Source: Pyropia haitanensis
Taxonomy: Eukaryota; Rhodophyta; Bangiophyceae; Bangiales; Bangiaceae
Direction: 5' to 3'
Length of the DNA stretch: 64,000 nucleotides
Assembly (NCBI GenBank): GCA_008729055.1
Contig: SDUX01000004.1
Span: forward strand, 7,162,026-7,226,025
The position numbers and the translations under genes are program-made. A model generated the notes under the pieces. It was given only the letters and a program-made list of their open reading frames with translations, was not told the origin of the DNA and did not search any database. Shown piece after piece: positions 3,691-58,671 of this stretch; the first letter of the stretch is position 1; every line of letters starts with the position of its first letter.

Positions 3691-4743
3691 GGGGGGGTGG
3701 GGGACGCTGGTCGCGGCGGTGGCGTGGGGGGGGGGGGGGGGGGGGCGTCGGCCGGGAGCGCGGGAGGGGGGATCCCCACCGCCGCCATGGCGGACGCGGG
3801 AGGCACAGACGGAGTGCGGAGATGGAAACACCGACCAGGGCCGCAGACTCGACCAGCACGGAAGGAGCGGCAGTGGCTGGAATGGAGCGGGGTAGCGAGG
3901 GTCCGAGGCAGCGGGCAAAGACCGCGGCGGGGGGGTCTCGCGCAGAGGCTGTCGGGGCGGGCCGAGCTGCCGCAGCAGCAGCGGCAGCGGCAGCGGCGGC
4001 GGCTGGAACAGCACGATCGTCGAAAGCGCGTCGATGAAGCAGGGTGGCACCAAGAGGGAAAGTGGGTGGCGTAGGCAGGAAGGCCGATGGCGGCGGCAGC
4101 AGCGGCAGCGGGGACGGGGGAGCAGAGCGCGACCCAGAACCACCCGCTGACCCCCTCCACGTACACAAAGCCTTGCCGGCAAGGTCCGTCTCGCTTCTCC
4201 GTCGAGGCCTGTCCGTGCAGAGATGCAGGTCGTCGAGATTGTTCACATCTGAAACACGCGCTCGTTTCCTGCCAGATTCGAAATTTTCGTACATGCATTT
4301 CTGTTCAATCCAAAAATTTAGAATAATACTTGAGCGGGTGTTTCAACAATTCATCGCTGGACGTCAATAGCGGAGCACTGGGCGGACCTGCTTACAGGCA
4401 ACTGATCGCGCCAGCAGATTCCACTCATCCAAGCCAAGGTCGTCTTGTTCATCGTTGATGCTGCCGTCAGCGGCACCAGCGGATGGGTGGCGGCGCCCAA
4501 CCGGCGGCGCAGGCCCGACTGGGGGTGCGTCCTCCGCTTGGCCAGCCCCGCTGCCTTGCCGTCTCTGTCGCTCTATCCTGAAAGCACCAACTCACGGGCT
4601 GCTGCGGTCGTGCCCATCGGCCAAGTCCTGGCGCCGCCCCCGTTGCTTCGACCTGGGCGCCCCGTCACCACCCGCTCGTCCGTCTGCTCTTTTTGACGTC
4701 CGCCGCCCGCTGGCATCCGCGGTTCCCTTCCGCACAAGGCGTC
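3691..4743. other. Divergent region between CCZ1-like gene and BCKDH E2
   Basis: Probably holds the unresolved 5' exons of the minus-strand gene (a frame with FIDALSTIVLFQPPP lies near 4000-4060) and the E2 promoter. From about 4230 to 4450 the GC content falls sharply. No ATG-led ORF is convincing. Confidence 0.4.
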
Positions 4744-54115: not shown

Positions 54116-54825
54116 GGTGGAGGAGAGGCAAGGAGGAAAAAGGGTAAAGAGGGTAAGGGGGAAGAGCGGAAGGGGAGACAGGAGAAGGAGAGGGGGGGAG
54201 CGTGGGATTCAACAGCGCGCCTGCGAGCGGGCGTGGGTGGGTAGGGGAGTACCGGTAGCTCACAGGGGCGTGACTGCCGACGGCTCCACCGCGGGGAAAA
54301 GAGGTGAACTGCAGTAGTGCAACGTCCCTAGCCCACTGGAATGGAACAGCAGTCTGGCCGGCCGCAGCATGGTCGGCATCCCGAGATGTGGGAAAGAAGC
54401 CTGGCGGCCGCGGGTGGTCGACGCAGAGCGGCCAGGCAACCAGCGAGGACATGCTGACCAAGTAGCCGCAGGCGGCGCGCCTGTCAGTCGACGGGACGAC
54501 ATCGGTCGACATCCAGGGCCGCTGGCGCGAGGTGGAATTCTGGTCTCCAACACACACGTGTATGCGAGCTTTTGCTATTGAGGAAATTACGAGTGTCGAA
54601 GTGCAAGGAACTGATTAAACTGTTCTGATCGTGACTTTCGTAGTTGCGGTCAATGTAGTGCATGCTCTGCACGGGACGAGTCCCAATGTGTGCGACTCGC
54701 GCGGCGGATCAGTCGTTCAAGGACTCCATTGGGGGCGAACTTGTCCGCGAACGTGACATAGCGTGAAACTTTTGCTCGTTCCGGAGGGAGTTCGCGCTCG
54801 AGTCACATGCCAACACCTTACCGCT
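54116..54825. other. Lower-GC flank left of the Fanzor element
   Basis: Upstream flank of the hypothetical gene, then a low-GC stretch (54540-54800) bordering the putative Fanzor element. No gene. Confidence 0.5.
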
Positions 54826-54850
54826 GTGGGGGGACCGACCCCTTGGTAAA
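54817..54850. repeat. Left terminal hairpin of the putative Fanzor element
   Basis: TTACC and GGTAA flank GTGGGGGGACCG (from 54826) with a nearby CCCC, so the block can fold. The same GTGGGGGGACCG motif, inverted, ends the repeat block at 58574, so the two may be the element's terminal inverted repeats. No target-site duplication is evident. Confidence 0.45.
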
Positions 54851-54996
54851 AACCCTCGCACTCGCAAAGATTCTCACCCACAGTGATAATGAACATCCGA
54901 CGATTGCCCGCGTTGCGGCTCGTCGGAGAGGGAGGGGCCGCTGCAACGGCCAGCCGCGGGGGGCGCCCCGCGTGAGTACCGCGGTGTTAAACCGTC
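54826..54996 (-). ncRNA. Candidate omega-RNA (fRNA) region of the Fanzor element
   Basis: In TnpB and Fanzor loci the guide-scaffold RNA lies at the 3' end of the ORF and runs to the element's end. This ORF reads leftward and stops at 54997, so the stretch to the left hairpin is where such an RNA would be expected. Placement is inference; no structure was computed. Confidence 0.3.
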
Positions 54997-56463
54997 TCAC
55001 GCGTGGGGTGCCTCCCCGCCACCAGCCGCCGCCGCGCCGCCCCCCTCCCCGCTCGCCGCGACCAGCGGGTCCGCCGCTGCCCCGCCCGCGCCGCGCCCAT
55101 CCGCCGCCCCGCCCGTGCGGCCGTTCCAGTCGATCCGCGGCCACCGTACGTGGGCCGCGGTCCGGAACGGGTGGCACGGGCGCCCGCGTATCCACTGCCA
55201 CGTGCGCCAGCCGAGGTTGGCCGCCGCCGTCACGTCGCGGTTCACCATCCCTCGGGCACACGTCGGCTCCACGCAAACCTTGACGCACCACACCACCGCC
55301 TTGCGGTCCGCCCGAAAGACCGGGCCCGCGTGCGGCCGCGGGTGTGCAGCCGCCCGTGCCGTCGCGGCGTTCTCCGCCTCGGCGCGGCACGCCGCCCGCC
55401 GGCGGGCGTACCGCACCGGCGCGCTGCGGTCCCACCACCCGCGCTGCACGCCGCTCGGCCGGCCGGTGCGGCCGCGCACGCCACGGCGCCGCCCGCACAC
55501 GCGCGTGCCGCGGGGCACTTGCGGCGGAGACGCGGGCGTCGGGAACACCAGCGCCAGCCGCGTGTGGCAGCCGTCGCAAGCTGCACTCGTGTTGCGCTCG
55601 GGCACGTCCACCGTCCAGCACAGGTGGCGCAGGCGACGCGTCAGGTGCAACGCCCCGCCGCGCGTCGCAGCGTCGCCAATCGCCACCGCCACGACAGCCC
55701 CATCCACCACACGGCGTAAGCGGCCGCCGGTCAGTTCGCGCGCCACCTGCGCAGCAAACCTCCCGCGCTGCAGCACTGCGTGCAGCCGCGCCGTACGCAG
55801 ACCGCGCGTTCCCTCCGCGCCCCACAGGTCTCCGTACAGCGCCTGAGTGCGGGCGGCCAGCCACGCGCGCGACGCGACGCGCACCGCTTCTGGGTCTGCC
55901 ACGGAAATCGAAGCGTGCTCGGTCACTTGCTCGGGCGTCCGCACGCCCGCAGTGTCACCCAGCTGCGTGATGCGCTCCACAGCCGCCGCGCGATGGGCTG
56001 CCACCGCGCGCGCCGTCATGCCATTGCCACACGCCTCATGATACCGGCCCCGTGACAGTGTGTACACGGCGCCCGCAGGGGGGGGGGCACCGTGCCCGCG
56101 ACTGGCGTGCGTCGCCGCGCGTACGCGGCCGGCCAGGCCACGCAGCGCAGCCGCGTACGCCTCCGCCGCAGTGCAGTCAGCCTCCATGGCGCCCGCACGG
56201 TCCACTCGGTACGCCTCCAAGGGCGCGCGGCCGCCGTCGACGTCGGCCGCCACGACCCCGCGCGTCGACCGCGGCAGGCACGCCCTTGCCACGCGCACCG
56301 CCGCGTGCCGAGGCACGCGCCACCGGCGGCGCCCGGTCGCCGCCAGCAGTCCGCCCACGGCGGCGCAGAGCTCGACGCGGCCGTCTCGCCGTGCACGCCG
56401 CGCGGGGCCACGCACGCGGCGCACACAGCGGCGCGTTGCGTGCCTCTCGTCAGCGACCGCCAT
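54997..56463 (-). CDS. Fanzor-type RNA-guided nuclease (eukaryotic TnpB homologue)
   Basis: 488 residues from the ATG at 56463; the frame stays open upstream, and a frame near 57222-57100 (FPPKCTVRMRLAAG) could be a lost N-terminus. The RuvC parts are in order: AVAIGDAA (Asp 264, motif I), VPERNTSAACDGC (Glu 289, motif II, zinc Cys 296 and 299), then Cys 397 and 402 and MVNRDVTAAANL (Asp 410, motif III). Before motif I the helical stretch AARTQALYGDLWG..RLHAVLQRGRFAAQV fits Fanzors. All three acidic residues are kept. The second Cys pair is CVEPTC, wider than CxxC. In the family, an omega-RNA guides DNA cutting that favours element persistence. Codon use resembles that of host genes. A host-domesticated or decaying copy is possible. 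Confidence 0.72.
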   Translation of the reverse strand: MAVADERHATRRCVRRVRGPARRARRDGRVELCAAVGGLLAATGRRRWRVPRHAAVRVARACLPRSTRGVVAADVDGGRAPLEAYRVDRAGAMEADCTAAEAYAAALRGLAGRVRAATHASRGHGAPPPAGAVYTLSRGRYHEACGNGMTARAVAAHRAAAVERITQLGDTAGVRTPEQVTEHASISVADPEAVRVASRAWLAARTQALYGDLWGAEGTRGLRTARLHAVLQRGRFAAQVARELTGGRLRRVVDGAVVAVAIGDAATRGGALHLTRRLRHLCWTVDVPERNTSAACDGCHTRLALVFPTPASPPQVPRGTRVCGRRRGVRGRTGRPSGVQRGWWDRSAPVRYARRRAACRAEAENAATARAAAHPRPHAGPVFRADRKAVVWCVKVCVEPTCARGMVNRDVTAAANLGWRTWQWIRGRPCHPFRTAAHVRWPRIDWNGRTGGAADGRGAGGAAADPLVAASGEGGGAAAAGGGEAPHA

Positions 56464-57250
56464 CGCGCCGGGCGCTGCGGGCGCGGACGGGCTGCCCCGA
56501 CTGCCGGGCGATCGTGCGGTACGCGCTGCCGCAGTCGCTTGCGACGCAGCCGCACTGCCGTCGCGGGTCGTCCCGCCCCCAGCCCCCGCCACCTCTTCGA
56601 CACGCCGCCGCTGAGCTGAGGGTGATCGCGCACCCGTGTCTTCTCCCGCCCTCGGCCGCGTACGGCGCTTTCCAGTGCGCCCGCGGGGTGCCTGCAGCGG
56701 TACCACCGTGCCGCCACCGCCATCGCCGCCGTCGCCGCCACCGCCGCCGCCGCGGCCGCCGCCGCTACCGCCGCCGCTTGAACTGCGGCACCGACGCCGG
56801 CCGCGCGCCCGCCCCCGCCCGGCGGCTCATCGCCACTCCACGGCGGCGACGGAGGCGGCGACGGCGGCGGCGGCGGTGGCTGCGGCAGCGGCTCGTGGTT
56901 GCGCCGCGGCAGCAGCATGCCGGGCGGGCACGCCTGGCGCCGCCGCCGCCGCCGCTGCGGCGCCTGCTGCAGGGGGGGACATTCCCCGGCCAGCGCCGCC
57001 CGCCGCCGCGGGCGCGTCGCCGGCCGCCGCCAGGTGTCTCCCGGCGGCGGCGTCCTCCCCCCCCCCCAAGCGGGCTTCCGCCGCTTCCCCCCCCCCGTCC
57101 GCCCGAAGGACGGCAACGACGACGGGCACAAGCGACGGCACTACGTCGGAGCGGCAGCCGGCAGCCAGTCTCATCCGCACGGTGCACTTCGGAGGGAACA
57201 GCAGGCCGCAACTTGTTCTCATAATTTCCGATGCGGCAGTCCGCGTTAGC
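56464..57250. other. Region upstream of the Fanzor ATG
   Basis: Upstream frames remain open to about 56706 and beyond, with Pro/Arg/Ala strings, a C run at 57057-57067, and a possible N-terminal exon at about 57222-57100. GC falls towards 57250, where the nested elements begin. Confidence 0.4.
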
Positions 57251-57281
57251 TATGGCACGTCCGCTAAAAATGGGACACTCA

Positions 57282-57838
57282 GGGCACGTCCACCAATGTC
57301 GATATTCGCCGATATTCGTGCCACGTAGGAAAAACGTGGCGCGTCGGGCCAAACGTGGCACTGATGCGGTCGTTCATCAATGTCAACGAGCTATTCCGGC
57401 CTAAAACGAACCCCCCTCAGCGAATAGACTTGATATAAGTGACGACATAACTTCCTCTCCGTACCCTGACGTCTGTTAGCTCCAGAGCTATCGCCGGGCC
57501 AAAACAGGGTGTTTTGGCCGAGCGATAGCCCTGGAGCCAACAGACCTTACCAATTGCCAGGGCGATGATTGGCTGAGAGCGTGCCACGTGTGGGCATCAT
57601 TTCGACAGTGTGATAGTGGAGAGTTGTCAACACCACCGGCCTGGAACGAAGACGACGAACGGACCCGTGGTTTGGAAGGTAGCCTGTTGGTAGCCCCCGT
57701 CTCCACCGTAAGTCCACTTCACGTGCTTCGCCTGATAGCTCGCCGATAGCCCGACCACCCAGACGCTGCCACGTATGTACACGTGGCGTCTTAAAACCAC
57801 TCATTTAAGACTGATAGCCGACATTGGTGGACGTGCCC
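57282..57838. mobile_element. Nested MITE with perfect 20-bp TIRs and TCA target duplication
   Basis: The left end GGGCACGTCCACCAATGTCG (57282-57301) is repeated exactly in inverted form at 57819-57838. TCA flanks both ends (57279-57281 and 57839-57841). A 3-bp duplication and GG-starting ends fit the PIF/Harbinger group. The 557-bp element has no coding frame and carries a long hairpin (57472-57544). Confidence 0.65.
57472..57544. repeat. Long imperfect palindrome inside the nested MITE
   Basis: Arms 57472-57506 and 57510-57544 pair at 31 of 35 positions around a GGG loop. The centre is a perfect GGCCAAAACA/TGTTTTGGCC stem. Confidence 0.85.
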
Positions 57839-58493
57839 TCAGAGTTTCCTACGACAATCTTTGCCCCAGTGAACTCGCGACGTCAGGCACCCAATCAATT
57901 CTCTGAGGGACGAGCTGCGCTGATCTCCAGATCGAATGATCAGCGCCACGGGAACCTTGGGTGGTCCGATTTGGGACCGGTGTCGGTCCTTCGGACAATC
58001 GATCATCGAGACCAGTCAGATCAAGGTCGATTCCTGTTTGTCAAGCCAATGAGATGCGTCCACGCTGCGCTGTTAGCCTCGCTACTGATTCTGTGTTCAG
58101 AAACAGGCGCCACGTTGGCCACTCGACCGCAATAGTTTATGAAAAGAATGGCCTCCAGAGCCCTCGATAATGAGCCAGAGTGTGGCGACCCGCCCCCACG
58201 GCCTCTATTCGGGCTCCCCTAGCTCGTCTAGCAAATTGTTTCTCAAAAGTTTGACTCCAAGACTAAAAGCACACCCGAGCCGACCCCTGAGAGGCACGTC
58301 AGGCGCCCTTTGGACGTCAAATTAGGGTCAGTCGGTGTCGTGATCGCACTCGAGTTGGCCGACCAGAGCAGAAGTTTGATTTCATGCATCGATTGCACCA
58401 CTCAGATGGGATGGGAGTTTCCCAGACAAACACCGCGTGTCCCATTTTTGGCGGACGTGCCATAATAAACTCTTACGGTCGTTTCGAAACTTT

Positions 58494-58574
58494 GTGGGGG
58501 GACCGGGCTAATCCTGGGGGGACCGGGGGGACCCCTCTCAAATGAGCATTCCAGAGGGGTGCCGGTCCCCCCAC
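58494..58574. repeat. Right terminal palindromic repeat block
   Basis: Begins GTGGGGGGACCGG and ends CCGGTCCCCCCAC, with inner arms GGGGACCCCTCT-like/AGAGGGGT and a second direct GGGGGGACCGG. It shares GTGGGGGGACCG with the left hairpin at 54826, so it may be the right end of the Fanzor element. Confidence 0.55.
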
Positions 58575-58671
58575 GTCGAACGAGTGTAGCTTCTCGCCCG
58601 CGCCTTGCTAGCCTGTACTTTCTTATCCACCCCCCCCTACCGTCCATCCTTCCTCACCGCCAAATGTCAGC

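Follow-up and report, generated by a model that had tools for sequence, protein, structure and literature searches.

A probably nuclease-defective, internally deleted copy of a mobile element carrying a large Fanzor1-type gene in a bangialean red alga

The window analysed here, a stretch of 64,000 nucleotides from contig SDUX01000004.1 of the bangialean red alga Pyropia haitanensis, very probably holds a copy of a mobile element with a gene for a large Fanzor1-type protein, a copy that has suffered an internal deletion and is nuclease-defective. The copy belongs to a family of related sequences, has lost an internal part that included the RuvC-I motif, and retains a conserved RNA fold at its right end; the element itself is present in multiple copies with common ends.

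The gene is represented in the window by a truncated minus-strand ORF (54997..56706), open for 569 codons from a GTG and with an in-frame ATG at 56463. By arithmetic on alignments to full-length copies, it makes up the last 569 codons of a multicopy gene that has approximately 1,394, and in the full-length reading it spans residues 826-1394. Reading of the minus-strand frame bore out the ORF and the motifs noticed in a sequence-only reading of the same DNA: IGDAA, PERNTS-x2-CDGC, CVEPTC and NRDVTAAAN are all found, and the residues numbered there as Asp264, Glu289 and Asp410 are ORF residues 345, 370 and 491, respectively. The window is GC-rich (64-84% per 2 kb). The ORF is not a product of chance, since it has 48 matches at E <= 0.001 in its own genome and two diverged families, A and C, have the frame in common with a dN/dS of 0.47 over 1,262 codons; the gene is thus under purifying selection.

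The whole element copy occupies positions 54817..58593 on the minus strand, with the left end at 58593 and the right end at 54817, as delineated by alignment to two other loci (L032 and L036) and by sharp shared ends. The left terminal sequence, GAAGCTACACTC...GACGTGGGGGGACCGGC (58561..58593, minus strand), has the same start in 12 of the 13 distinct left ends examined, where the flanks are unrelated; only L055 is without the exact motif. The left ends start GAAGCTACACTC...GACGTGGGGGGACCGG, and among the first 13 left-end matches listed 11 begin at query positions 54-56 and one at position 51, the remaining one being the query itself. The right terminal sequence, GGTCGGTCCCCCCACAGCGGTAAG (54817..54840, minus strand), is common to the right ends of the A and B copies and the sequence beyond it differs. 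Its core, GTGGGGGGACCG, is also found, inverted, at the left end.

A copy on C11, in which the ends lie approximately 14.7 kb apart, can be aligned at both of its ends with the window copy, which is missing approximately 11.4 kb in between (both lengths are arithmetic on pairwise alignments). The deletion junction (56706..56762, minus strand) consists of GC-rich repeat sequence aligning to both sides: in W numbering, position 3739 onward matches L032 and the sequence up to 3795 matches L036. A nested MITE-like insertion of 555 bp is located at 57283..57837 (minus strand); its inverted ends, GGCACGTCCACCAATGTCG, are 19 bp long, and it is accompanied by a duplication of CTGAG. The C6 copy has a near-identical insertion at a different site (L035 258-816). 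The C11 element in turn contains a stretch of approximately 2.5-3 kb with 89% GC and very long low-complexity open frames (L036:3969-7184), which has no Pfam match and is possibly captured host sequence. Other elements of approximately 6 kb (L060 and the places matching query positions 57-155) share the left terminal sequence at approximately 92% and have no recognisable Fanzor gene; in the sister element L060 no gene of any kind could be recognised by eye.

The protein search of the assembly from which the window comes (52.9 Mb, 136 contigs) returned 53 six-frame matches at E <= 10, which we grouped into 38 loci. Six copies, that of the window included, are at least 96% identical over most of the query, and further families are approximately 72% (L010-L013), 51% (L015-L023) and 39-43% (family D) identical to it. 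The copies of family C are 99.7-100% identical to each other over 1.1-3.3 kb, which therefore points to recent movement or duplication. Families A and B are approximately 72% identical overall, and in one pair (L010:1317-2100, minus strand, and L003) the last 200 codons are identical at 601/603 bases and the right end at 180/182; such a near-identical 3' part suggests recent recombination or conversion. Outside the genome seven proteins were matched, three of them from Pyropia yezoensis, in agreement with the red-algal host that had been guessed from the letters of the DNA. One P. yezoensis protein (P0004) is 82-84% identical to the closest P. haitanensis copies. Another protein, P0003, from an 8.2-kb contig named Pyropia yezoensis, matches the window with 100% identity across 49% of the query, in contrast to the P. 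yezoensis family C proteins with their 82-84% identity; horizontal movement and contamination or misnaming of the contig are alternative explanations for it.

Common ends, differing flanks and near-identical copies are the signs by which a eukaryotic transposable element is recognised, and all three are seen here. The element flanks compared showed no consistent target-site duplication. In the search for a transposase, 10 open frames (of 53 with at least 90 codons) in the left portion of the C11 copy had no Pfam match at E <= 0.1, and in that for an empty site the right flank of the window copy matched only itself. The comparison of flanks among loci yielded one repeat match, which we took for the beginning of a different repeat and not for an empty site. 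Truncation of the 5' end in the LINE manner was first suggested by the common right end and varying left ends, but a common left end exists. Three loci (L015, L022 and L027) carry one common upstream sequence with an open frame read as a gypsy-type Pol, and as this sequence was taken to represent nested insertions, LINE-type truncation was dropped.

Helitron2 elements are characterized by a RepHel protein and by insertion after a T-rich motif without target-site duplication. A carrier of the Helitron type, which would affect only the class to which the transposon is assigned, would agree with the lack of a recognised target duplication, with the published finding that Fanzor1 in Chlamydomonas rides Helitron2, and with a Pif1 match at C11:3615301 between two terminal-motif matches 18 kb apart. 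It is nevertheless unlikely, as none of the 19 Pif1 matches could be placed inside a Fanzor copy, the C11:3615301 match has copies of equal score at a distance from any terminal motif, and no T-rich target is seen in the flanks. The region enclosing this helicase match (G000:C11:3600589-3618475) may itself represent either an autonomous relative or an insertion nested there. We prefer to regard the carrier of the Fanzor-like gene as a mobile element of unassigned class.

Between the stop codon and the right end of the window copy lies a candidate omegaRNA/reRNA scaffold (54817..54999, minus strand; covarying core 54817-54927), and the sequence just outside the right end (54797..54816, minus strand) would, by analogy with published Fanzor1 systems, be a putative guide flank if the RNA is made. 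The stretch from stop codon to element end folds with a z of -2.91 in the window (2 of 200 shuffles as good), and the same stretch of a family C copy with a z of -2.81 (1 of 200). Base pairing was counted in eight representatives of the sequence types, picked from the 26 right-end entries, which come from 25 places. Standard pairs make up 94.1% against 88.9% in shuffles, nine pairs are changed on both sides against 2.4 in shuffles and five in the best slid control, and covariation is 0.218 against 0.124, with 0 of 500 shuffles as good in each case; the shuffle control keeps the relatedness among rows in. In the long hairpin the alignment row of family C is displaced by a single column, a shift that tells against the structure, and of the four helices one is invariant. 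A covariance model built from the representatives gave 28 matches in 35 sources, some of which overlap, and 27 of them are right ends of the A, B or C type. The 28th is located approximately 70 nt downstream of a family D frame (L057; 28.5 bits, E 1.1e-4). The next best score among L057-L060, obtained with filters off, was 11.1 bits, and L058, L059 and L060 gave no convincing match. Folded alone, the L057 stretch forms a hairpin and then a terminal stem enclosing two hairpins, i.e., the same layout (z -2.88, 2 of 200 shuffles as good). Two sub-threshold Rfam matches were judged irrelevant.

Published Fanzor1 reRNAs are described as having three stems, the TIR within the scaffold and a double-stranded terminal stem. 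On structure and covariation, a candidate structured reRNA/omegaRNA that includes the TIR is found at the right end, and the fold, conserved, covarying and found in a distant sister family too, appears from these comparisons to be of the Fanzor1 type. A DNA hairpin serving transposition might look much the same: the fold stops exactly at the element border and takes in the terminal inverted core, Helitron2 elements have hairpin ends according to their published descriptions, and the left end likewise holds inverted GGGGGGACC/GGTCCCCCC stretches. We consider it improbable that the fold is such a hairpin instead of a guide-RNA scaffold, given that several conserved G-U pairs favour an RNA in the sense of the ORF, that the hairpin following the frame recurs in family D and that Fanzor1 reRNAs are themselves reported with the TIR in the scaffold. 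For this last reason the two roles may both hold, and the scaffold reading is kept in what follows.

The Fanzor fingerprint, as given in PMC10711439, demands a Glu six residues before the first Cys of the zinc ribbon, and the window ORF has this alternative Glu in E-RNTSAA-C. The published Fanzor1 pattern further comprises a [TS][TS]xx-C4 zinc finger followed within 5-50 residues by RD; the window reads TSAACDGC ... CVEPTC with RD after it. Profile comparison places the Glu on that of SpuFz1 and PpFz1 (E 1.8e-4, probability 49%, 27 columns), and the full-length profile comparison reaches E 0.004 with a probability of only 8.5%. The profile search proposed from the sequence-only reading does not decide the matter. 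In single-sequence searches the window ORF had no match in Pfam or PDB, searches of NCBIfam and PHROGs returned nothing relevant, and the PF07282 model matched nothing in the window's own genome. In relatives PF07282 was weakly matched at the expected places in four of seven and absent in three, the best score being 19.6 bits against a curated cut-off of 26.3, which the intact relatives do not reach; it was also matched in three of six alignment members. No Fanzor came up when the PDB was searched with profiles; the C-terminal alignment (A3) gave 11 matches at E 0.2-0.71, none of them a Fanzor. An AlphaFold model of the relative P0002, made from an alignment of 10 rows, had a mean pLDDT of 37.6 and a pTM of 0.26 and is uninformative on the RuvC fold and on clustering of the triad.

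The distance from the Asp of the DPG motif to the Glu is 449 residues in family A, 415 in family C and 410 in P0002, and the intact relatives thus fall outside the published Fanzor spacing, D-X(125,275)-[TS][TS] or DPG-x(120-160)-E in the sources cited (PMC10711439 among them). Because of this spacing and the unreached PF07282 cut-off we place the family as a variant of Fanzor1 and not as a standard member. The reading from the first chosen Met is 1,394 codons long in family A and 1,322 in family C, with start codons that are inferred. In the N-terminal region (L032:2771-6952, minus strand) the motifs CARC, CAACG and NPHxYDRGEDP, at residues approximately 228-420, are conserved in P0009 as well as between families A and C. 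A protein of double the normal size, with long inserts and no significant whole-family match, might be another zinc-ribbon protein, unrelated to Fanzor and with motifs arisen by chance; we regard this as very unlikely, as DPG, the alternative Glu, TSxxC, C-x4-C and NRD co-occur beside a Fanzor1-like right end. The kinship with Fanzors proposed from the motifs consequently holds at the level of the family, through the published fingerprint residues and the Fanzor1-type right-end RNA fold.

The same cannot be said of the catalytic triad. The sequence-only reading saw all three RuvC acidic residues, and hence an intact triad, in the window copy. It was right about two of them, the alternative RuvC-II Glu (55597..55599, minus strand), six residues ahead of the first Cys, and the RuvC-III Asp of the NRD motif (55234..55236, minus strand); the third, the Asp of IGDAA (55672..55674, minus strand), appears by comparison of the copies not to be catalytic, and RuvC-I proper is deleted. 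In intact copies of the same genome the RuvC-I motif, VSADPG, lies upstream, and TIVSADPGVRAVLTAV is found in full-length copies upstream of the part that the window retains. Six-frame translation of the whole window contains no ADPG. DPG, the alternative Glu and NRD are united within one open frame in 11 of the 30 fetched loci, and the window is not among these. That the window ORF is nevertheless an intact Fanzor with Asp264, Glu289 and Asp410 as its triad is hardly credible, plausible as the order of the motifs is with all three letters acidic, since a distinct ADPG is present upstream in 18 of the 30 loci (taken with flanks of 1.5 kb only), among the 25 loci with the Glu motif found (L009 and L030 being one place) 15 have D and 10 have Q in the Asp264 column, where family D has N, and its place aligns by eye near GDWS and GNWS in the printed PDB segments of SpuFz1 and PpFz1, whereas the metal-binding and active-site residues listed for SpuFz1 are E541, D383, N385 and D606 (PMC10432273). 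The case demonstrates that the wrong RuvC-I Asp can be chosen by motif reading alone. The Glu column reads Lys in L002 and L058, and further copies besides that of the window are therefore damaged.

Compared with known systems, the P. haitanensis family resembles SpuFz1 (PDB 8gkh) and PpFz1 (PDB 9cf0) in the alternative Glu ahead of a TSxxC zinc ribbon, in DPG and RD (in the intact relatives), in carriage by a mobile element and in the right-end RNA fold. The second Cys pair, CVEPTC, had been singled out as unusual, but the printed segments of both proteins have C-x4-C as well. The family differs from them in its length, approximately 1,322-1,394 residues against the 600-700 given for most Fz1 proteins (PMC11423790), in the approximately 100 residues between the two Cys pairs and, in the window copy, in the absence of RuvC-I; the 410-450 residues from the DPG Asp to the Glu compare with 158 in SpuFz1 (D383 to E541; PMC10432273). 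PpFz1 is described as having an insertion in RuvC, the FRI domain, of approximately 100 residues (PMC11423790). The present family likewise has an extra stretch inside RuvC, of more than 250 residues relative to SpuFz1, the comparison being one of size and place.

A red-algal copy with an intact triad was expected from the sequence-only reading to add to a sparsely described group; red-algal Fanzor1 has, however, been known since 2013 from CMe-1A of Cyanidioschyzon merolae (Bao and Jurka, 2013), described as an element of approximately 3 kb with approximately 150 copies and no TIR. Both are multicopy Fanzor1 elements of unassigned class from red algae; going by the description of CMe-1A, the present one differs in its length (approximately 14.7 kb on C11) and in its inverted terminal core. 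Literature searches on Fanzor with Porphyra and with Pyropia found no paper. In the Spu-1 ghost loci reported from Spizellomyces punctatus the guide-RNA region is kept and the nuclease lost (PMC10432273). With its conserved right-end fold and crippled nuclease the window locus therefore resembles a published ghost locus, while it differs from those of Spu-1, as described, in retaining a 569-codon open fragment and two of the three catalytic residues.

In known Fanzors the right-end RNA, in which the flank serves as guide, directs the cutting of DNA that bears a TAM (PMC10432273 among the sources), and the best reading, by analogy, is that the intact copies here work in the same way. In these a single frame, from a presumed start codon, would encode the N-terminal region, RuvC-I with DPG, the long insert, RuvC-II with the alternative Glu, the zinc ribbon and RuvC-III with NRD. 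A transcript of the sense strand that extends to the right end would be processed and fold into the guide-RNA scaffold, with the host sequence just beyond the right end serving as guide. The complex might then recognise a TAM and cut matching DNA, e.g., the empty site on a sister chromosome, and repair would copy the element back, to the element's presumed benefit. The window copy should not cut, because it is without RuvC-I; having kept the RNA part, it could at most supply guide RNA in trans.

We propose tentatively, as a possibility against which the balance still lies, that bangialean algae host a distinct giant branch of Fanzor1, with proteins of approximately 1,300-1,400 residues that have a conserved N-terminal region containing Cys and, from RuvC-I to RuvC-II, over 250 additional residues. 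Their carriers would be large elements, mobile until recently, in which no transposase of their own is recognised, and deleted ghost copies would keep the omegaRNA and feed guides to the proteins of intact copies. If this is true, the range of RNA-guided Fanzor nucleases comes to include nori-type seaweeds, where the protein is much larger, and a single genome with intact and ghost copies that are nearly identical would provide a test set for whether Fanzors help transposons to spread in trans.
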